The position numbers were made by a program, and so were the translations under genes. The notes under the pieces were generated by a model. That model saw nothing but the letters and a program-made list of their open reading frames with translations, was not told the origin of the DNA and did not search any database. A stretch of 64,000 nt of DNA from Marivirga atlantica (GTDB lineage: Bacteria > Bacteroidota > Bacteroidia > Cytophagales > Cyclobacteriaceae): assembly GCF_016734805.1 (NCBI RefSeq), contig NZ_JAERQG010000002.1, forward strand, positions 248,001 to 312,000. Direction: 5' to 3'. Below are positions 6,954-49,100 of the stretch, one piece after another. Positions within the stretch are counted from its first letter, which is position 1; each line of letters opens with the position of its first letter.

Positions 6954-9900
6954 TCAAAGCTTCCTTCTGCCGCCTCCTTTGTAGTCAATCTCAACTACTT
7001 TCAGTCGGGCCACATCATCGGTATAGCGAGGGTCATCTATAAAGGCACATTTTTCCATCATTGCTACTTCCATAGAGTAGAAACCGAATTCTTCCACCAC
7101 CTTGCCAGTCAGTTTGTAAATGCCTTTGCCCCTGAAAGGGTAGCGCATAGCAGAAGGAGGGAAATGCACGGTATCAATAAAGTAGCCGTCAATATCAATG
7201 AAGGTACCGAAATTCATGCGCCCGCCATTGCTGGTCCCCGTATTCTTAATAGCCACCAGGTAACCATAAATGGTCATCTGTTGGTTTAAGAAGCGAGAGA
7301 AATCGGCAGTCTTCAGATAGTGTTGAGGAGGTTCCTTAAGCAACTCAAAAGGGTTGCATAGTGGAAAGCCAATCAATTCTATTTCCTCAAAGGAATCCTC
7401 ATGAGCGAAGATATTCAGGTCGGGCAGCTTAAAGCGTTTGGCTTCTACCTCAAAGAGTCCGCGTGTAGGCTTGCTCTTTTTGGAATGACCCAGCAGAAAA
7501 TGGGCTTCCCACAACAAAGCCTTTTTATTCTCTCCTGTAAAACGAAAAGCACCTATACGAATGAGAATCAGCAGTTGTTCTAAAGATACGGCTACCCGAT
7601 TCACAAAATCCTGCAATCCTTTAAAGTCGCCAAATTTGCGAGCTTGTAGCAATTCAAAAATCACCCGGTCTTCTAAGTCTTTTACCATGCCCAGCGCCAG
7701 ATAGATGGTATTGCCTTCAATCACACAAAGGGCTTCACTTTTATTCACACAAGGAGCTTCTATCTGTGCGCCATGCATGCGTGCCTCATGCACATAAAGC
7801 TCTTTTCTGTAAAAACCTCCGCCATTATTGAGCACTGCTACCATGTATTCCAGCGGATAATAAGCTTTCAAATACAGGCTCTGATAACTTTCTACCGCAT
7901 AAGAGGCGGAGTGACCTTTGGCAAAGGCATAGCCGGCAAAGCTTTCTATCTGTCGCCATACTTCAGCTGCCAGCGCATCATCATGGCCTTTCTTTTTACA
8001 GTTCTCGAAATAGCGCATCTTCACCCGCTCAAACTCCGCCTTGGAGCGGAATTTGCCGGACATTCCCCTGCGGAGCGCATCGGCTTCGCCTAAATCGAGC
8101 CCTGCAAAATAGTGCGCTACTTTAATTACATCTTCCTGGTAAACCATCACTCCGAAAGTATCTGGCATAATATTCCACAATACAGGATGAGCATCTTTGC
8201 GTCTTTCAGGCTGCCTGAAACGGAGAATATATTCACGCATCATACCTGATTTAGCCACTCCGGGTCTGATGATGGAGCTGGCTGCTACCAGACTTAGGTA
8301 ATCTTCAGCTTCCAACTTGCGCAACAACATCCGCATAGCGGGCGACTCCACATAAAAACAACCAATGGCATTGGCCTCACGCAGTAGCTTTTTAATGTGT
8401 GGGTCCTGCTTCAGCATATGAAAGTTGTGTATGTCGATGGGGGGCTCGGCTGGCTGATTTTTACGTACCAAAGTGAGTGTGTCTTTGATTTTTCCCAGTC
8501 CACGTTGCCCTAAAATATCGAATTTGTAGAGCCCTACATCTTCGGCCTCATGCATATCAAAGTGAGTGGTAGGAAAACCTTTGGGCGGCAGACTGGTAGC
8601 TGTAAAATAGTGAATTGGCTTGTCAGCCATCAAAATGCCACCCGCATGAACAGAGAGATGGCTCGGAAAACCTGCAATGTAGCTGCTATAATGTAGCACC
8701 ATAGCAGAAAGCTTATCGCTTGGCGCACCCCCTTCGGCAATTTTATCAATTTCATGAGGAGGTAATCCAAACACTTTACCGAGTTCGCGCACGGCCGCTC
8801 TGTATTTAAAAGTACTGTAGCTGGCCAGTAGTGAGATCCCGCCAGGAGATTTTTTACTGAAGTATTCGAAGATGAATCGGGTAATGTCCTCACGCTCATA
8901 CGATGAAAAGTCGATGTCAAAATCAGGTGGGTTTTCTCTGTATAAGTTGATAAAACGCTCGAAGTAGAGATCAAGGTCTACCGGGTCTACATCGGTAATA
9001 CGGATGAGGTAAGCCACCATGCTGTTGGCGCCACTGCCACGGCCCACATAGAAATAACCTTTGTAGCGCGCATAGCTCACAATTTTACAGTTGATGAGGA
9101 AGTAGGCTACAAATTTCTTTTGCCTGATGATTTGCAACTCCTTCACCAGCCTACGCAATATGCTGAAATCGTAATCGGGATAGCGATATTTGAGTCCTCG
9201 TAGGCAGAGTCTGCGCAGTAGGTAATAATCGCGAAATTCGGAACCCGTATAAGTGCTCAGGTTTTGGATGGATTTTCCGCTAAAGTCGAAATAGATGCTG
9301 CATTGTTGTAATAGCTTTTCGGTGTTCTCCAGCAGGAATATGTGATTTTTGAACTTCTTCTCGAGCTGCCTTGGTAAACGATAGGTGTCTTCAGGGTTGC
9401 CTTCTTCATTCTTTGGTAACTTACTGAGCAATGTGTTTTTATCAATAGCACGCAGCAAGCGGTGCGCGTTGAAGTCGCGCTTGGTGCGGAAAGTGGCGGT
9501 AGCCAAAACGACTAACTTTTTTGGTTGCTGTTTCCATGGTGAGCGTATCAGCTTGTTTAGCTCTTTCGGATGTACACCGATAAATTCATGTTTGTAGAGT
9601 TTGCGTTCAGGAGCTTTCTGAAGCGGATAGATGATGAAAGTATTTTTAAACTTTGGAGCCTCCGTTGGAAGATCAAGTTTGTCATGCAGGTGTATGGAGA
9701 GAAAGTCATTTAGTTCTTTGAAGCCTTCATTATTCTTGGCAATGCCCACATAAAGCTGCTCATTTCCATTCCTGAAATCTATACCTACTGCAGGTGTGAT
9801 GTTGGCTTCCTGCGCCAGCCGAATAAACTTCAGGCAGCCAGCCGTTGAGTTGATGTCAGTCAGTGCTAACTTGGTAATATGGTGCTCCTTCGCCCAGTTG

Positions 9901-9965
9901 ATCAGGTCTTCTGGGTTCACCGTGCCGTACTTAAAGCTATAATATGAGTGACAGTTGAGGAACAA
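6954..9965 (-). CDS. dnaE2: Error-prone DNA polymerase III alpha subunit (DnaE2 type)
   Basis: This 1003-residue C-family polymerase is shorter than replicative DnaE (about 1160 residues), as expected for DnaE2-type enzymes that copy past DNA lesions. The N-terminal PHP domain (FLNCHSYYSFKYGT) is followed by the polymerase core with the acidic metal-binding segment PPDFDIDFSS and the downstream palm/finger segments VGRGSGANSMVAYL and HAGGILMADKP. The C-terminal part contains helix-hairpin-helix and OB-fold regions (QQMTIYGYLVAIKNT). The first codon is TTG (9963-9965), immediately after an in-frame TAA, so no ATG start is possible. It lies downstream of dinB on the same strand, and the two probably act together in translesion synthesis. 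Confidence 0.9.
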   Translation of the reverse strand: MFLNCHSYYSFKYGTVNPEDLINWAKEHHITKLALTDINSTAGCLKFIRLAQEANITPAVGIDFRNGNEQLYVGIAKNNEGFKELNDFLSIHLHDKLDLPTEAPKFKNTFIIYPLQKAPERKLYKHEFIGVHPKELNKLIRSPWKQQPKKLVVLATATFRTKRDFNAHRLLRAIDKNTLLSKLPKNEEGNPEDTYRLPRQLEKKFKNHIFLLENTEKLLQQCSIYFDFSGKSIQNLSTYTGSEFRDYYLLRRLCLRGLKYRYPDYDFSILRRLVKELQIIRQKKFVAYFLINCKIVSYARYKGYFYVGRGSGANSMVAYLIRITDVDPVDLDLYFERFINLYRENPPDFDIDFSSYEREDITRFIFEYFSKKSPGGISLLASYSTFKYRAAVRELGKVFGLPPHEIDKIAEGGAPSDKLSAMVLHYSSYIAGFPSHLSVHAGGILMADKPIHYFTATSLPPKGFPTTHFDMHEAEDVGLYKFDILGQRGLGKIKDTLTLVRKNQPAEPPIDIHNFHMLKQDPHIKKLLREANAIGCFYVESPAMRMLLRKLEAEDYLSLVAASSIIRPGVAKSGMMREYILRFRQPERRKDAHPVLWNIMPDTFGVMVYQEDVIKVAHYFAGLDLGEADALRRGMSGKFRSKAEFERVKMRYFENCKKKGHDDALAAEVWRQIESFAGYAFAKGHSASYAVESYQSLYLKAYYPLEYMVAVLNNGGGFYRKELYVHEARMHGAQIEAPCVNKSEALCVIEGNTIYLALGMVKDLEDRVIFELLQARKFGDFKGLQDFVNRVAVSLEQLLILIRIGAFRFTGENKKALLWEAHFLLGHSKKSKPTRGLFEVEAKRFKLPDLNIFAHEDSFEEIELIGFPLCNPFELLKEPPQHYLKTADFSRFLNQQMTIYGYLVAIKNTGTSNGGRMNFGTFIDIDGYFIDTVHFPPSAMRYPFRGKGIYKLTGKVVEEFGFYSMEVAMMEKCAFIDDPRYTDDVARLKVVEIDYKGGGRRKL

Positions 9966-10009: not shown

Positions 10010-10503
10010 GAGCTGTGAGTTTCGAGCTACTAGCTACGGGCTTTGATCTTCCATGATTAGCTCGAGGCTCGCAGCTCATGGCCTTCAAAGTCTACAGCTT
10101 TGAAATGAAACTCATCAACATCTTTTGCTCTTCATTGATCAATTTTTTCAACTGTTCAAGTATTACCTTTTCTCCAAGTTTAAGTTCTTCAGCTATTAAT
10201 ACTTGTGTTTCTAACTCAAAACAAGAACCTAATGCTATTTGGAGAAAATACTTATGCTCTTTTGAACTATCACGACTGCTTCCTTCTGATATGTTGGAAG
10301 GAATAGATACAGCGGCTCTATTCATTTGGCTGGTTAGTCCGAATTTTTCTTCAGATGGAAAAAGTTTAGTAAGCTTATACATTGTAAATACAATCTGCAT
10401 CCCATTCTGCCATACTTTTAATTTCTTGAAATTCTTCATTGATTTTATTTTAGGTGTTTCTTACTCGTAACCAGAAGCTCACAACTTACAGCTATGCTGA
10501 AAG
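10010..10503. repeat. CTCGAG/GAGCTGC-rich degenerate repeats flanking the four-helix-bundle ORF
   Basis: Bases about 10010-10085 contain repeated short words such as TTCGAGCTACTAGCTACG and TAGCTCGAGGCTCGCAGCTC. On the other side of the small ORF, 10470-10503 has AAGCTCACAACTTACAGC and AAAGCTAGCTGCG. The words are related to each other in both orientations. The same kind of sequence recurs at 13691-13817. Together with the ORF between them they look like an inserted unit placed between dinB and dnaE2. Confidence 0.55.
10092..10439 (-). CDS. Four helix bundle protein (S23/IVP-like)
   Basis: This 115-residue protein belongs to the four-helix-bundle family first described from intervening sequences in 23S rRNA genes. 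Typical features are the start FKKLKVWQNGMQIV, then YKLTKLFPSEEKFGLTSQMNRAAVSIPSNISEGSSRDS and a final Leu/Glu/Lys-rich helix. Predicted helices cover nearly the whole length. The biochemical role is unknown. It has an ATG start (10437-10439) and is enclosed by CTCGAG-rich repeats between dinB and dnaE2, a position suggesting insertion into a formerly compact polymerase operon. Whether it still allows read-through from dinB into dnaE2 cannot be seen. Confidence 0.85.
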   Translation of the reverse strand: MKNFKKLKVWQNGMQIVFTMYKLTKLFPSEEKFGLTSQMNRAAVSIPSNISEGSSRDSSKEHKYFLQIALGSCFELETQVLIAEELKLGEKVILEQLKKLINEEQKMLMSFISKL

Positions 10504-11718
10504 CTAGCTGCGTCTGTTGGCTAACAATGGTGGAGGCTCGCCTCGGAAAGGGTTAAATCTGCTGATGGTTCTGGCTTCTATGCCTGCTGCGCGCAATACG
10601 GCTCTATCTCCATGTTTATCTCTTATTTTATCCATTGCCTGGTAGAGATTGATTACTTCTTCTGAATCTTCGAATAGGTTGATCTGATAACCACCGCTTA
10701 CCAAATGACTAAAACGCACACCTATTAAGCGTACCAATAGTCGCTTTTGGTAAATTCTGTTGAAAAGCTCCAATACCTTCGGAATCAGAATATGATCGGC
10801 AGAGGTGTAAGGAAGCCTCGATTGTAAAGTGTAAGTGTTGAAATCTGAGTAGCGTACTTTCACGGTGACGCAGGCAGTAAGCTTTTCGCCTCTGCGCAGC
10901 TGAAAAGCCAGGTTTTCTGCCATTGCTAATAAGATAGCCTTGAGCTTTTCTACATCAATGGTATCCTTATCGAAGGTGCGTTCTGTGGAGATAGACTTCC
11001 GCTCTGAATAGGGGATGACAGGCGTGTTGTCTATGCCGTTGGCTTTCTGCCAGATGGTACGCCCGTTCTTACCAAAAGCTTTTTTCAACATCTCTACGGG
11101 CATCTCCTGTATGGTTTGCACCTTACGGATGCCGAGGTTGTTGAGCATCTGGAAGGTTTTTTCACCTATCATGGGGATTTTCTTTACTGATAGAGGTGCC
11201 AGGAAAGGCTTTTCTGTTCCATAATCAACGAAGATTTGATTATTTGGCTTGGCTTCGCCCGTAGCTACTTTTGAGACTGTCTTATTTTTTGACATCCCGA
11301 AGGAGATAGGAAGCCCTGTTTCGTTGATAATTTTCTGCCTGATTTCCGAAGCTAACTTTAGACTGTTCATAAAGCGATCCATACCGGAGAAGTCGGCATA
11401 AAACTCATCAATAGAAGTCTTTTCATAAAGCGGCACATGTTCTTTGATGATGTTGGTTACCTCTTCCGACTTTTGGGTGTAGTTGGCTGAATTTCCCCTT
11501 ATGATGATGGCTTCAGGGCATAGCTGCCGAGCCAGTTTCATGGGCATGGCTGAGTGAATCCCGAAGGTGCGTGCTTCATAGCTGCATGAAGCTACTACAC
11601 CTCTGTCGGTAGTGCCGCCAATGAGGATCGGTTTACCCTCCAGCTTGCTATCGAGTAAGCGTTCGCACGACACGAAAAAGGTGTCTAAATCCAGGTGAAG
11701 TATAGTTCGTTCTGCCAC
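10504..11718 (-). CDS. dinB: Y-family translesion DNA polymerase (DinB / Pol IV type)
   Basis: This 404-residue polymerase copies damaged DNA. The palm acidic residues are visible in ILHLDLDTFF (D10, D12) and TSIDEFYADFS (D104, E105). A nucleotide-contact segment ASCSYEARTFGI and the thumb HhH motif (VKKIPMIGEKTFQMLNNLGI) follow. A beta-clamp-binding peptide QINLFED lies near residue 345. Translation must begin at GTG (11716-11718), because an in-frame TAG within the promoter element lies four codons upstream. The promoter is overlapped by an operator-like palindrome shared with the LexA-like repressor unit at 12.6 kb. dnaE2 lies downstream on the same strand. Confidence 0.92.
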   Translation of the reverse strand: MAERTILHLDLDTFFVSCERLLDSKLEGKPILIGGTTDRGVVASCSYEARTFGIHSAMPMKLARQLCPEAIIIRGNSANYTQKSEEVTNIIKEHVPLYEKTSIDEFYADFSGMDRFMNSLKLASEIRQKIINETGLPISFGMSKNKTVSKVATGEAKPNNQIFVDYGTEKPFLAPLSVKKIPMIGEKTFQMLNNLGIRKVQTIQEMPVEMLKKAFGKNGRTIWQKANGIDNTPVIPYSERKSISTERTFDKDTIDVEKLKAILLAMAENLAFQLRRGEKLTACVTVKVRYSDFNTYTLQSRLPYTSADHILIPKVLELFNRIYQKRLLVRLIGVRFSHLVSGGYQINLFEDSEEVINLYQAMDKIRDKHGDRAVLRAAGIEARTISRFNPFRGEPPPLLANRRS

Positions 11719-11722
11719 AATA

Positions 11723-11753
11723 CAAAGCTAGTATCTAATTACTAATAATAATA
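11723..11753 (-). promoter_or_regulatory. Putative dinB promoter
   Basis: On the minus strand, TAGCTTTG (11723-11730) matches the Bacteroidota -7 element TAnnTTTG. The -33 position 19 bases upstream reads TATT (11750-11753), a weak match to TTTG. The -7 element ends only four bases before the GTG start codon, so the transcript would be leaderless or nearly so. Confidence 0.5.
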
Positions 11754-11757
11754 GTAT
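11739..11757. promoter_or_regulatory. Operator-like palindrome O1 (TACTA-N7-TAGTA) at dinB
   Basis: The site reads TTACTA, seven bases, TAGTAT, with a perfect TACTA/TAGTA core at 11740-11744 and 11752-11756. It covers the spacer and -33 position of the dinB promoter, where a bound repressor would block polymerase. Confidence 0.65.
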
Positions 11758-11776
11758 AAACTAAAAATATTAGTAA
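11758..11776. promoter_or_regulatory. Operator-like palindrome O2 at dinB
   Basis: The site reads AAACTA-N7-TAGTAA, nine of ten core bases matching TACTA-N7-TAGTA. It directly abuts O1 (start-to-start 19 bases), giving a tandem pair upstream of dinB. Confidence 0.55.
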
Positions 11777-11881
11777 ATAGTTTTTTATCATAAGGTTTAC
11801 TAAAAAAAAGATTGTATCGGCTGGTTTTTTAATTACAAACGTATTTATATTTATGAACCTTTAAAATAAACTATCATCCAA

Positions 11882-12475
11882 ATGAAGAAGCTTCTTATCT
11901 TAGTTTTTACTTTTATCACTTTATTCCAACTACAGGCACAGATTAATAGTACCGATAGTACTACAGGTTCAGTGCGTGATAAATTCTGGGGTATTCAAAC
12001 TAATGGACTTGAATTACTTTATTATCAGGAACACAAGTTGACACCATCTATAGCGATTAGAGGTGAGGCAGGCTTTACCAACGCTTTCTTCAGCTCGGGA
12101 GGTGCAACAAGAGAAAATACAAGTGACTTCTTTACCTTATTAAACTTCTCGGCAGAGCCCAAGTGGTATTATAATTTAAAAAAGCGCAGTGCTAAAGGTA
12201 AAAGTATTGCCTTTAATGCAGGTAATTACATCGGTTTAAGAACTTCCTATAGTCCGAAGTGGGTTGTGTTGAGTAGTATGAATAAGAATTTAATAGATGC
12301 CGATCATACTATTACTATTGTGCCCACTTTTGGAATGCGCAGAAATTTAGGTAAACTTTTCGATTTCGAATTAGGGCTAGGGGTTGGTTATGGCTTCTAT
12401 TTCGATGGTTCGGAAAATTATTTTGATCATAGCTTGTTCATTATACCTCATCTGAGGTTTGGTTTCAAAAAATAA
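11882..12475 (+). CDS. Outer-membrane beta-barrel family protein
   Basis: This 197-residue protein has a signal peptide (MKKLLILVFTFITLFQLQAQ) followed by alternating, aromatic-rich beta strands and a last strand LFIIPHLRFGFKK, typical of small outer-membrane barrels in Bacteroidota. It has no named family that I recognise. It is divergent from dinB, and the dinB operators lie more than 100 bases from its start codon, so control by the repressor is uncertain. A weak TATATTTA sequence precedes it but is not a full promoter match. The gene separates dinB from the repressor unit and has no evident link to DNA repair. Confidence 0.65.
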   Translation: MKKLLILVFTFITLFQLQAQINSTDSTTGSVRDKFWGIQTNGLELLYYQEHKLTPSIAIRGEAGFTNAFFSSGGATRENTSDFFTLLNFSAEPKWYYNLKKRSAKGKSIAFNAGNYIGLRTSYSPKWVVLSSMNKNLIDADHTITIVPTFGMRRNLGKLFDFELGLGVGYGFYFDGSENYFDHSLFIIPHLRFGFKK

Positions 12476-12511
12476 CCTCTCACTATAAATATTAGCGACA
12501 TTAAGGTTGTA

Positions 12512-12530
12512 ATACTAAATAAATTAGTAT
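12512..12530. promoter_or_regulatory. Operator-like palindrome O3 upstream of the repressor unit
   Basis: ATACTA-N7-TAGTAT is a perfect palindrome; with flanks the arms are AATACTAA (12511-12518) and TTAGTATT (12524-12531). It has the same geometry as O1 at dinB. Confidence 0.65.
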
Positions 12531-12554
12531 TCTGCTTGTGGTTTTTAGTTTAAA

Positions 12555-12573
12555 TTACTATTTTTATCAGTAT
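12555..12573. promoter_or_regulatory. Operator-like palindrome O4 upstream of the repressor unit
   Basis: TTACTA-N7-CAGTAT matches nine of ten core bases of TACTA-N7-TAGTA. Its start is 43 bases from O3 and 21 bases from O5, close to whole helical turns. Confidence 0.55.
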
Positions 12574-12575
12574 AA

Positions 12576-12594
12576 ACACTATTTTAATTAGTGT
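12576..12594. promoter_or_regulatory. Operator-like palindrome O5 upstream of the repressor unit
   Basis: ACACTA-N7-TAGTGT is perfectly symmetric and differs from the consensus by one paired change (T:A to C:G) on each side. A related shorter palindrome with a four-base spacer, TACTA-N4-TAGTA, follows at 12597-12610, directly before the ATG at 12614. Confidence 0.55.
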
Positions 12595-12613
12595 ATTACT
12601 AAAATTAGTAGAA

Positions 12614-12871
12614 ATGAAAATTAAACTATCAAGTAAACGATTAAACTCAGGAAGATGCCAGGTGCGCTTTCAGGTAGCTGAAGAAACTACAGGCCATAGC
12701 TGGTATGGTTATACGTTGGTAGATCCGAAGGATACGTTAAAAAGTGTTGTGAGTAGGATTGAAAATACTTTCACTCATGCCGATAACACGATGCTGGGTA
12801 GAGCTTCCATCTACAACTTGATCAGCAGTAATTACCGAAAAGAGAACATGATGATTTTTAGAGATAATTAA
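12614..12871 (+). CDS. Small protein of unknown function, first gene of the repressor unit
   Basis: I do not recognise this 85-residue protein. It starts MKIKLSSKRLNSGRCQVRFQV, is basic and mixed alpha/beta in look, has no signal peptide or membrane segment, and contains one Cys and several aromatic residues (HSWYGYTL). It sits directly downstream of three operator-like palindromes and 35 bases before the LexA-like repressor, so it is probably co-transcribed with it and induced by DNA damage. That makes it a candidate unknown member of a damage response. The reading frame is well placed and has an ATG, but there is no family support. Confidence 0.65.
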   Translation: MKIKLSSKRLNSGRCQVRFQVAEETTGHSWYGYTLVDPKDTLKSVVSRIENTFTHADNTMLGRASIYNLISSNYRKENMMIFRDN

Positions 12872-12906
12872 ATCTAGCTATTATCTTTAACCCTTGTATC
12901 AACCCT

Positions 12907-13686
12907 ATGGATTCAGTGCACCTCGTTAGTAGCAATATCAAATTCCTCAGAAAGCAAAAAGGCTGGACTCAGCAAGATTTGGCCGACCAGTTAGAAATTA
13001 AAAGACCACTTATTGGCTCTTATGAAGAGGGTAGAGCAGATCCGCGACTTAACACATTGCTTAAATTAGCAGACCTCTTTGAAGTAACTGCTGATGAAAT
13101 GCTTACCACAGATTTGAGCACCAATAAATCTATCAAAAAGAAGCCAGCTAAGATTCTTGCTATCACGGTGGATGAGCAAGACAATGAAAACATTGAATTA
13201 GTGCCTCAAAAAGCATCAGCCGGTTATACAAACGGCTATGCTGACCCTGAATACATTCAGGAACTACCCAAATTCCGTTTGCCCATGTTGCCTACAAGTG
13301 GTACTTACAGGGCATTTGAGATTTCAGGTGATTCTATGCTACCAATTTTGCCCGGCACTGTCATCATCGGCCAGTATGTGGAAGATGTAAAAGACATTAA
13401 AAACGGACAATCCTACATTGTAGTAAGTGAGCAAGAAGGTGTTGTATATAAGCGTGTATTCAACTATGTGGAGGAAAAAGGCTTACTCTATTTAGTGAGT
13501 GACAATACCGTTTATTCTCCCTATGAAATTCCTGCTGATAGTGTGATGGAAGTGTGGGAAGCAAAGGCTTTTATTAGCACGCAATTTCCTGAAGGTAACA
13601 GCCGTATCCAGAGTACATTGAGCATGCAAGAACTCACAGATATGGTGTTGAGTATTAAAGAAGAGATTACTAAATTAAGAAAATAG
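12907..13686 (+). CDS. LexA/CI-like self-cleaving repressor (XRE HTH + S24 peptidase)
   Basis: This 259-residue regulator combines an N-terminal XRE helix-turn-helix (about residues 10-65, KGWTQQDLADQLEIKRPLIGSYEEG) with a C-terminal S24/LexA peptidase domain. Visible catalytic features are a candidate Ala105-Gly106 cleavage bond in QKASAGYTNG, the nucleophile Ser143 in EISGDSMLP and Lys182 in VVYKRV. The Ser-Lys spacing of 39 is close to that of LexA. RecA-stimulated self-cleavage and release of target genes is the family behaviour. A short C-terminal helix (residues 239-259) is extra. Palindromes upstream of its own unit and at dinB imply autoregulation plus control of the polymerase; the DNA target is inferred. 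Confidence 0.85.
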   Translation: MDSVHLVSSNIKFLRKQKGWTQQDLADQLEIKRPLIGSYEEGRADPRLNTLLKLADLFEVTADEMLTTDLSTNKSIKKKPAKILAITVDEQDNENIELVPQKASAGYTNGYADPEYIQELPKFRLPMLPTSGTYRAFEISGDSMLPILPGTVIIGQYVEDVKDIKNGQSYIVVSEQEGVVYKRVFNYVEEKGLLYLVSDNTVYSPYEIPADSVMEVWEAKAFISTQFPEGNSRIQSTLSMQELTDMVLSIKEEITKLRK

Positions 13687-46144: not shown

Positions 46145-49100
46145 ATGAGTAATCAGCAAAAAACATATTGGAAAGGCACAGAGCAATTAACAAATGAACC
46201 TTCATTTGTTGCAAATGCTGAAAAAGAATTTCCAGAGTATTTACCTATAAATGAGGATAAGGAAGCCAAAAATGGTAGCACTTCAAGAAGAGATTTCTTG
46301 AAGATGATGGGTTTTGGTGTAGCAGCAGCTTCTTTAGCCGCTTGTGAAGCACCCGTTAGAAAAGCCATTCCTTATTTAAATAAACCTGTTTCTGTTGATC
46401 CGGGTATTGCTAATTATTATGCTTCAACCTATACGGAAGGTGGAAACTACGCTAGTATTGTAGTTAAAACCAGAGAAGGTAGGCCTATCAAAATAGAAGG
46501 TAATAAAATGTCTTCTATCACTCAAGGTGGTGTGAATGCTCAGGTGGAAGCTTCAGTACTTTCTTTATATGATCAGGAGAGACTAAAAGGTCCTTTGAAA
46601 AATGGAGTAAGTGCAAACTGGGCTGATATAGACAAAGAAATAATGGATCAGCTTAACGCCATTAGTGCAGCAGGTGGATCTATCAAAATAATATCTTCTA
46701 CAATCAATAGCCCTTCTACTCTAAAGGCTATCGAAGATTTCTCTAATAAATTCGGAAACACTGAGCACATCATGTATGATGCTATTTCAGCTCACGGATT
46801 ATTAGAAGCTAATAAAGAGATGTTTGGTGTTAGAGGTATTCCTTCTTACGACTTCAGTAAGGCGGAAGCTATTGTTAGTATCAACAATGATTTCTTAGGT
46901 ACTTGGATTTCTCCAATCGAACATACTAAACAATATAGTAAAACGAGAAAGGTTTCTGATAAGAAGAAGAAAATGTCTCGTCATTATCAGTTTGAGACTA
47001 ACTTATCTTTGACTGGTTCTAATGCTGATTATAGAACACCAATTAAACCAAGTCAGGAAGGTTTGGTTGTGGCGGCTCTATATAACGAAGTAGCTAAAAT
47101 GACTGGCAATGCTGGTATCAGTGCTTCAAAAGTAAATGTAGCCAATGTAAGCAAAGCAGCTAAAGATTTAGTAGCAGCTAAAGGTAAATCATTGGTAGTG
47201 GCTGGTTCAAATGATAAAGACATCCAATTATTGGTTAATGGAATCAATAATATGTTGGGCAACTACGGTACTACACTTGATTTAGGTAAGCATGTACACT
47301 ACAGAAAAGGTGACGAAGCAGCTTTTAATAAGTTTATGTCTGATGCGAAAGCAGGTAGCGTAGATGCAGTAATTGTATATAATGCTAACCCTGTTTATCA
47401 TTCATCAAAAGGTGCTGAGCTTGCAAAGGCATTGAAAAATGTTAAGTTGACTGTTTCTACATCTGACAGAAAGGATGAAACGGCAAATGCAGTTACATAC
47501 GTAGTACCTGATCATCATTTCCTTGAATCATGGAATGATGCCATGCCTAAAGATGGTGAGTTAAGTTTGGCGCAGCCTACCATTTCACCATTGTTTAAAA
47601 CAAGACAAGCACAAGAGTCATTCTTAAAGTGGAGTGGTAATAACACTTCATATTATGACTATTTAAGAAATAACTGGCAAAGCAGTTTCTACGCCAGCCA
47701 GGAGCCTACTTTTGATATCTTTTGGGATAGAACATTATTCAATGGTGTTTTAACTATGAAGAAAGAATCAGCCGGAGTTTCAGCTCAGTCAGTTGATTTT
47801 TCAGGAGTAGCAAATAGAATTAACAGTAACTACAAAGCCAATAATTCAGGTTTGGAAGTTGCTTTCTATCAAAAGGTTTCAATTGGTGATGGTAGCCAGG
47901 CTAACAACCCTTGGTTACAGGAATTACCAGATCCGATTTCAAAAGCAGCTTGGGATAACTATGCTACCATTTCGCAGAAAATGGCCAATGAGCTTGGGAT
48001 CAAAGTTGTTGAAGGAAAAACCTCATTAATTACTTTAGAAATTGATGGTAAGTCAATGGAAGTTCCGGCATTGGTTCAACCAGGGCAGGCAATTGGTACC
48101 ATCGGTTTAGCAGTAGGTTATGGTCGTCAAATGGCTGGTAAAGTAGGAAACGGCATCGGTTTCGATGTGTATCCTTACATCGGTACGTTGAACGGATCAC
48201 AGTCAATGGCTAAAACTTCAAAAGTGAATGTTGCAGGAGTTGCTGGTGATTATCAGTTAGCTCAAACTCAAACGCAGCAGACTTTCATGGGTAGAGAAAC
48301 AGTTATCCAGGAGACACTTCTTTCTGAATACAAGAAGAAGAACTGGAAGCGTGATTTCCAACCTCATGTTGAAACGAGCAAAGGTGCTGTATCTCCATCT
48401 AAATTAACACTTTGGAATGGTCATAAATACAATAATCACCATTGGGGATTAGCAATCGATCTTAACTCTTGTACTGGTTGTGCTGCTTGTACAGTAGCAT
48501 GTCAGTCAGAGAATAATATCCCTGTAGTTGGTAAGCAAGAAGTTATCAACAGAAGAGATATGCAGTGGATGCGTGTTGATAGATACTATAGCTCACAAAA
48601 AGGTGCTGAATCTTATGCTGAGTTAGAAGAAGCGGCAGAGAATCCTGAAGTTACATTCCAGCCGATGATGTGTCAGCATTGTAATAATGCACCGTGTGAA
48701 ACTGTTTGTCCTGTTGCAGCTACAACACATAGCTCTGAAGGACTTAATCAAATGACTTATAACAGATGTGTGGGTACAAGATATTGTGCGAACAACTGTC
48801 CATATAAAGTAAGAAGATTTAACTGGTTTAAATACCATGACAATAGCAAGTTCGATAAGAACTCAGCTATGAATAATACATTAGGTAAAATGGTATTGAA
48901 CCCTGATGTTACCGTACGTTCTCGTGGGGTAATGGAGAAATGTTCAATGTGTATCCAGAGAATTCAGGCTGGTAAGTTGAAGGCTAAGAAGGAGAAGAGA
49001 GAGCTTGAAGATAAAGATGTTAATACAGCATGTGCTACGGCTTGTCCTTCAGATGCGATCATCTTCGGAGATTTGAATAATCCTAATTCAAATATTTCTA

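Follow-up and report, generated by a model that had tools for sequence, protein, structure and literature searches.

The 64,000-nucleotide (nt) window analysed here, from Marivirga atlantica (contig NZ_JAERQG010000002.1, positions 248,001 to 312,000, forward strand), contains a locus in which dinB, an orphan small gene encoding a protein of 85 amino acids (aa), and the gene of a non-canonical LexA repressor are associated with palindromic operator boxes. With a probability of about 0.9, this locus is the control point of a small Bacteroidetes-type SOS regulon that would operate as follows. The repressor, which combines a CI-like helix-turn-helix (HTH) with an S24 domain and would belong to the CTAA-N5-TTAG group, would bind TACTAA-N5-TTAGTA boxes on one face of the helix and hold down dinB, probably together with the DnaE-type gene behind it, as well as a distant PA0069-type radical SAM gene and its own operon. 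Upon DNA damage, RecA filaments would lead the repressor to cut itself at Ala105-Gly106 by means of Ser143 and Lys182, translesion synthesis would be released, and fresh repressor would later restore repression, while the 85-aa protein from the same operon might tune the repressor. Judged by its sequence, the operator is the already known SOS box of Bacteroidetes, and M. atlantica adds to that system one more lineage, with a small regulon. According to the text of Sanchez-Osuna et al. (2021, PMC8565304), HTH and S24 repressors run the SOS response of Bacteroidetes through the operators CTAA-N5-TTAG and GGA-N5-TCC, with support from electrophoretic mobility shift assays with mutated sites and from reverse transcription quantitative PCR after mitomycin C; the targets include dinB, an SplB-type radical SAM gene, recA, and the repressor itself, and one of the proteins tested came from Pontibacter.

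The boxes are 17 base pairs (bp) long. A first-pass annotation, made from the letters of the window, described them as TACTA-N7-TAGTA; the extended form is TA-CTAA-N5-TTAG-TA and the core CTAA-N5-TTAG. A scan of the window recovers all five palindromes of that geometry and their start-to-start spacings of 19, 43, and 21 bases, with the corrections that the annotated coordinates had included one flanking base and that two weak boxes (12597-12613 and 12481-12497) had been overlooked. Exact copies of TACTA-N7-TAGTA number 3 in the window versus 0.07 expected from 100 shuffles of the 64 kb, the third copy (46924-46940) being within an open reading frame (ORF). When a matrix derived from 65 sites of relatives, with the M. 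atlantica genome excluded, was scored on the window, the top three matches were at 12512 (23.6 bits), 11758 (22.6 bits), and 11739 (14.6 bits), and the highest score across 20 Markov sequences was 18.1 bits; thus, the first two sites each beat chance singly, whereas the third does not. Matches of at least 12 bits number 4 in the window versus a mean of 0.35 in the Markov sequences, and lower scores were obtained at 12596 (11.9 bits), 12576 (7.5 bits), 12555 (7.1 bits), and 12480 (6.3 bits).

Three boxed promoters are recognised in the M. atlantica genome, namely those of dinB, of the small gene and repressor, and of the radical SAM gene, which carries two boxes 18 bp apart (G000:C6:122310-122343) ending about a dozen bases before the start and is identified as PA0069-type by NF033668 (469.2 bits, cut-off 360). 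Among relatives, a repressor match occurs in 150 of 194 genomes of the order, the own genome included, and the 29 best-scoring homologues, the own one excluded, carry 24 perfect cores within 500 nt 5' of the repressor at 19 of their 29 loci, with 0.51 in shuffles. Only the N5 spacer is enriched at these loci, since the other spacers from 0 to 12 give 0 to 2 matches each, and the 500-nt downstream control contains 0 perfect cores; a perfect core precedes the repressor in all 15 Pontibacter loci. In the taxonomic family, 47 of 60 genomes have a dinB match, and the 300-nt promoters of the 30 best loci, excluding the own one and one with 28 nt upstream, contain a perfect core in 9/28 cases and a core with at most one mismatch in 15/28 (shuffles, 0.34 and 5.9). 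For the PA0069-type radical SAM gene (39 of 60 family genomes with a match, 30 best loci, own excluded) the figures are 16/29 and 24/29 (shuffles, 0.27 and 6.1), and for recA, with the own locus included and one locus having only 137 nt upstream, they are 10/30 and 15/30. The motif that the first-pass annotation had expected in relatives is therefore found before dinB, the repressor, the radical SAM gene, and recA, and its SOS-like regulon with dinB and an autoregulated repressor agrees with the boxes before both genes in the own genome and in relatives (Table 1).

Table 1. Operator boxes and genes of the dinB-repressor locus, in positions of the window
Feature	Position	Strand	Description
Operator box 1 of dinB	11740..11756		TACTAATAATAATAGTA; exact TACTA-N7-TAGTA; one mismatch to core; 14.6 bits
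Operator box 2 of dinB	11759..11775		AACTAAAAATATTAGTA; one mismatch to TACTA-N7-TAGTA; perfect core; 22.6 bits
Weak box 5' of small gene	12481..12497		One core mismatch; 6.3 bits
Main operator box, small gene-repressor operon	12513..12529		TACTAAATAAATTAGTA; exact motif; perfect core 12515-12527; 23.6 bits, window maximum
Weak box	12556..12572		TACTATTTTTATCAGTA; one mismatch to TACTA-N7-TAGTA; 7.1 bits
Weak box	12577..12593		CACTATTTTAATTAGTG; two mismatches to TACTA-N7-TAGTA; one core mismatch; 7.5 bits
Weak box at small gene start	12597..12613		Directly before ATG; one core mismatch; 11.9 bits
Repressor, non-canonical LexA (HTH_3 and Peptidase_S24)	12907..13686	+	PF01381 51.6 bits and PF00717 36.1 bits, both over cut-off
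85-aa protein gene, orphan family	12614..12871	+	Just 5' of repressor
dinB, Y-family DNA polymerase IV	10504..11718	-	PF00817, PF11799; NF002677 292.8 bits, cut-off 256
DNA polymerase III alpha (DnaE)-type gene	6954..9965	-	PF07733, PF17657; TIGR00594 465.9 bits, cut-off 434
23S rRNA-intervening-sequence-type (IVP) gene	10092-10439	-	PF05635; between dinB and DnaE-type gene
197-aa ORF	11882-12475	+	Between dinB and small gene

Several observations weigh against an SOS regulon centred on this locus. The promoters of the own recA and of the own second dinB were inspected and carry no box, there is no perfect box at 19/28 dinB loci and 13/29 radical SAM loci of the family, three to four of the seven boxes in the window have low matrix scores, and the published LexA proteins themselves lay outside the sequence set compared. 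Some of the dinB and radical SAM loci that lack a perfect box come from a clade with a changed operator, and the rest are unexplained. Moreover, the exact motif occurs genome-wide in 12 copies versus 18 for the reversed control, its looser one-mismatch form in 201 versus 211, and double boxes in 8 and 6 on the two strands versus 9 and 8. As the motif count is not raised in the genome, the case is carried by place and conservation, and a chance origin of the boxes is ruled out by their place, spacer specificity, and conservation despite the lack of numerical enrichment. The genome contains 11 exact extended boxes, 3 of them belonging to the dinB, small gene-repressor, and radical SAM promoters; with gene identities judged by eye, 5 of the other 8 lie in ORFs, 1 in a terminator-like hairpin, and 2 in intergenic positions with no recognisable repair gene beside them, one being about 100 nt 5' of a 465-aa ORF.

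From its three boxed promoters and the boxless recA and second dinB, the own regulon looks small. The same facts would suit a local switch of two or three promoters for an error-prone polymerase, comparable to HdiR or UmuDAb, instead of a general SOS response. Such a local switch is possible but rather unlikely: good boxes were recognised at three promoters only, but recA is boxed at 10/30 loci of relatives, and own genes with a single box may have escaped notice. With recA under control at those family loci, the own regulon looks like a contracted SOS regulon. As for the operator, the first-pass annotation took the motif for an under-described one and set it against LexA boxes from other phyla alone, whereas its core proves to be the box already published for Bacteroidetes (PMC8565304). 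That the system is new and its operator previously unknown is thus very improbable: the TA-flanked extended form is indeed favoured before dinB and the radical SAM gene in the family, but the flanks are merely a preference in the 65-site matrix (A or T, then A or G), and core, spacer, protein family, and targets all match the system described in the text of PMC8565304.

The repressor is the sole match of its kind in the M. atlantica genome at E 1e-15. The Ala-Gly cleavage bond, Ser143, and Lys182 proposed by the first-pass annotation correspond to A105-G106, S143, and K182, which are invariant in 18 aligned homologues. Its N-terminus matches only HTH families of the Cro/CI type, without a match to the winged-helix domain of canonical LexA, and its recognition helix in the window reads KRPLIGSYEE, paired with a CTAA operator. 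In a quick tree built without the published LexA sequences, it groups loosely with those of Pontibacter and Hymenobacter, at an open fork and on a long end branch. The phage-like N-terminal domain and matches to PHROG 4 and 8 might suggest the repressor of a prophage or plasmid, with boxes serving that element, but this origin is hardly tenable, given that the repressor is present in 136 of 148 family genomes and that boxes precede the chromosomal dinB and radical SAM gene; in addition, the adjoining ORFs look like housekeeping genes as judged by eye, with no systematic scan for phage genes. A contig titled Rickettsiales bacterium (L213) encodes a repressor that closely resembles the one from Marinoscillum pacificum and is probably a misnamed metagenome-assembled genome (MAG).

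The arrangement of the boxes along the DNA was analysed in the promoters of dinB, the radical SAM gene, and the small gene, where neighbouring boxes with no more than one core mismatch give 62 spacings in the range of 14 to 80 bp. Their resultant length is 0.65 at a period near 10.75 bp, reached by 0 of 20,000 uniform draws (maximum 0.44), and the 35 spacings above 24 bp alone give 0.71, which again 0 of 20,000 uniform draws reach; the period is about 10.5-10.75 bp. Since related loci are non-independent and the shuffle pool of chance spacings holds only 56, this phasing is strong but not exact support for boxes that would be bound on one face of the DNA. The first-pass annotation had suggested cooperative binding on one face, and of this the common face agrees with the phased spacings, while cooperative binding of the repressor is inferred.

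The operator has seemingly changed in a sister clade, together with the recognition helix. Among 80 repressor loci, the best 80 of 547, each scanned over 500 nt upstream, those with the helix [KN]R[SP]xxGAYEE have CTAA-N5-TTAG in 56/67 cases and TGTT-N9-AACA in 0/67, whereas those with RTMISAYED, from Algoriphagus, Echinicola, Mariniradius, Cecembia, and one Cyclobacteriaceae MAG, have TGTT-N9-AACA in 11/13 and CTAA-N5-TTAG in 0/13. In a second set of 62 small-gene loci scanned over 200 nt upstream, 23 of the 30 loci of the MISAYED type have TGTT, 1 of them also with a distant CTAA, and 25 of the 31 loci of the GAYEE/GSYEE type have CTAA and 0 have TGTT; the one locus whose helix is not in view has CTAA. 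Moreover, GTTTA-N5-TAAAC occurs in 9 of 14 dinB promoters selected for having no perfect CTAA box, and in 7 of these 9 the repressor of the genome is of the MISAYED type. The operator label changes once on the quick tree; thus, the switch is one event without replicates. Operator motif divergence as such has already been described for this repressor family (PMC8565304), and the combined change of operator and helix on one branch allows the change of SOS operators to be tested. A further conserved dyad, GACA-N5-TGTC, lies 5' of the small gene, about 350 nt 5' of the repressor (L018-L022, L025), at 6 loci in one set and 19/33 in another. A second repressor copy, 41-43% identical and without the small gene, is located beside dinB in sister-group genomes (G212:C10:32587-33270, G231:C45:70353-71045, G237:C18:118841-119605), resembling the Elizabethkingia case in the text of PMC8565304.

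The small gene is closely tied to the repressor. With a profile of 11 rows, it is detected in 111 of 148 family genomes and, at class level, in 6 of 395 genomes, all 6 from the same family, and the repressor is found in 136 of the same 148 genomes, 134 of them among the matches listed. The repressor follows 3' on the same strand and contig in 111 of the 112 small-gene matches, within 312 bp in 108, with a median gap of 25 bp and three pairs at 1.3 to 4.5 kb; the lone match (G247:C18:30071-30322) is the second copy of a congener; it contains two stops and lacks an adjoining repressor. None of the 148 genomes has the small gene alone, whereas 23 genomes among the matches listed have only the repressor. 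The small gene is missing from every locus fetched for Pontibacter (15), Roseivirga (7), and Hymenobacter (2); thus, the switch is able to run without the 85-aa protein. The homologues appear as coding sequences, with third positions varying most in 8/8 pairs compared, and K8, L10, S12, G13, Q16, F19, G32, Y33, and L35 are invariant in 36 rows. The AlphaFold2 model (mean predicted local distance difference test score, pLDDT, 81.3; weak at about 61-80) shows three strands, two helices, and a final strand in this order, and fold searches against PDB and viral structures gave no match at E 0.001; comparison with solved sequences gave nothing better than E 0.1, and the best Pfam and PHROG matches (E 0.0034 and 0.031) are below the Pfam cut-off or unnamed. 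In another family, short ORFs of 57-78 aa lie between operator and repressor (L017, L031, L033-L036, L039), and their homology to the 85-aa protein is unsupported (hhalign probability of 2%).

Other S24 SOS repressors have known small partners, such as DdrR with UmuDAb in Acinetobacter and gp7 of phage GIL01 (PMC11332147), and, because of this precedent, the leading guess by analogy is that the 85-aa protein would tune its repressor as a corepressor or antirepressor. Like ddrR, its gene is linked to the gene of an S24 SOS repressor and has boxes before it. It is proposed, tentatively, that in most family genomes the 85-aa protein may be a dedicated and undescribed modulator of the Bacteroidetes LexA, a counterpart that would have arisen independently of DdrR and gp7, within a two-protein switch of which one clade changed the operator from CTAA to TGTT and the recognition helix together. 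SOS operons elsewhere carry effectors, and the 85-aa protein could instead be one of them, acting for instance on division or on a polymerase and merely sharing the operon; this alternative is possible if rather doubtful: the protein would be induced along with the repressor, but 111 of 112 copies stand 5' of a repressor, 108 of them within 312 bp, and none in a genome without it. This linkage fits a partner better, although shared inheritance of one operon could yield the same pattern. The open-access literature yielded no description of the small gene or of the TGTT operator, in a search that did not extend to the further diverged palindromes listed in the PMC8565304 supplements, and no paper on Cyclobacteriaceae, the SOS response, and LexA; a small gene between operator and repressor does not appear in the text of PMC8565304. 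Of the under-described system announced by the first-pass annotation, the operator had thus been published (PMC8565304), and the small gene, which was named but not singled out, is the least explained part. An orphan protein tied to an SOS repressor in three quarters of the sampled family genomes is a testable lead, and the small partner and the operator switch are the parts that deserve follow-up.

Around these elements, the DnaE-type gene lies on the same strand as dinB and probably shares its transcription unit; its score is under the cut-off of the error-prone subfamily PRK05672 (437.8 versus 939 bits). The 197-aa ORF has no Pfam match, and the dinB boxes, placed between it and dinB, might control both. 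Several relatives have dinB and the small gene immediately side by side in divergent orientation.

In comparison with known systems, the repressor shares the S24 domain and the role with canonical LexA, but its N-terminus is an HTH_3 of the CI type instead of the LexA winged HTH. The UmuDAb-DdrR pair likewise couples a small protein to an S24 SOS repressor, ddrR adjoining umuDAb and being controlled by it, whereas, in the text of PMC11332147, the DdrR gene is oriented divergently to umuDAb and restricted to Acinetobacter; the 85-aa protein is likened to DdrR by gene context, with no membership claimed. The SOS regulator of Elizabethkingia anophelis, with the operator TTAC-AAATT-GTAA beside an error-prone polymerase gene (PMC8565304), has its likeness in the Algoriphagus clade, where the operator has diverged and the dyad-spacer form is the same, whereas the M. 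atlantica window has a different half-site and keeps CTAA-N5-TTAG. The nearest known counterparts are the non-canonical LexA proteins of Bacteroidetes as described in the text of PMC8565304, from which M. atlantica differs in its conserved small gene between operator and repressor and in its boxless recA, and for which that text mentions neither cooperativity nor the helical phasing of the boxes observed here. Common to both are the HTH_3 and S24 domains, the Ala-Gly bond, and the Ser-Lys dyad, the CTAA-N5-TTAG core with its fixed spacer, autoregulation, and several boxes per promoter, and, as targets, dinB with a DNA polymerase III alpha gene and an SplB-type radical SAM gene.

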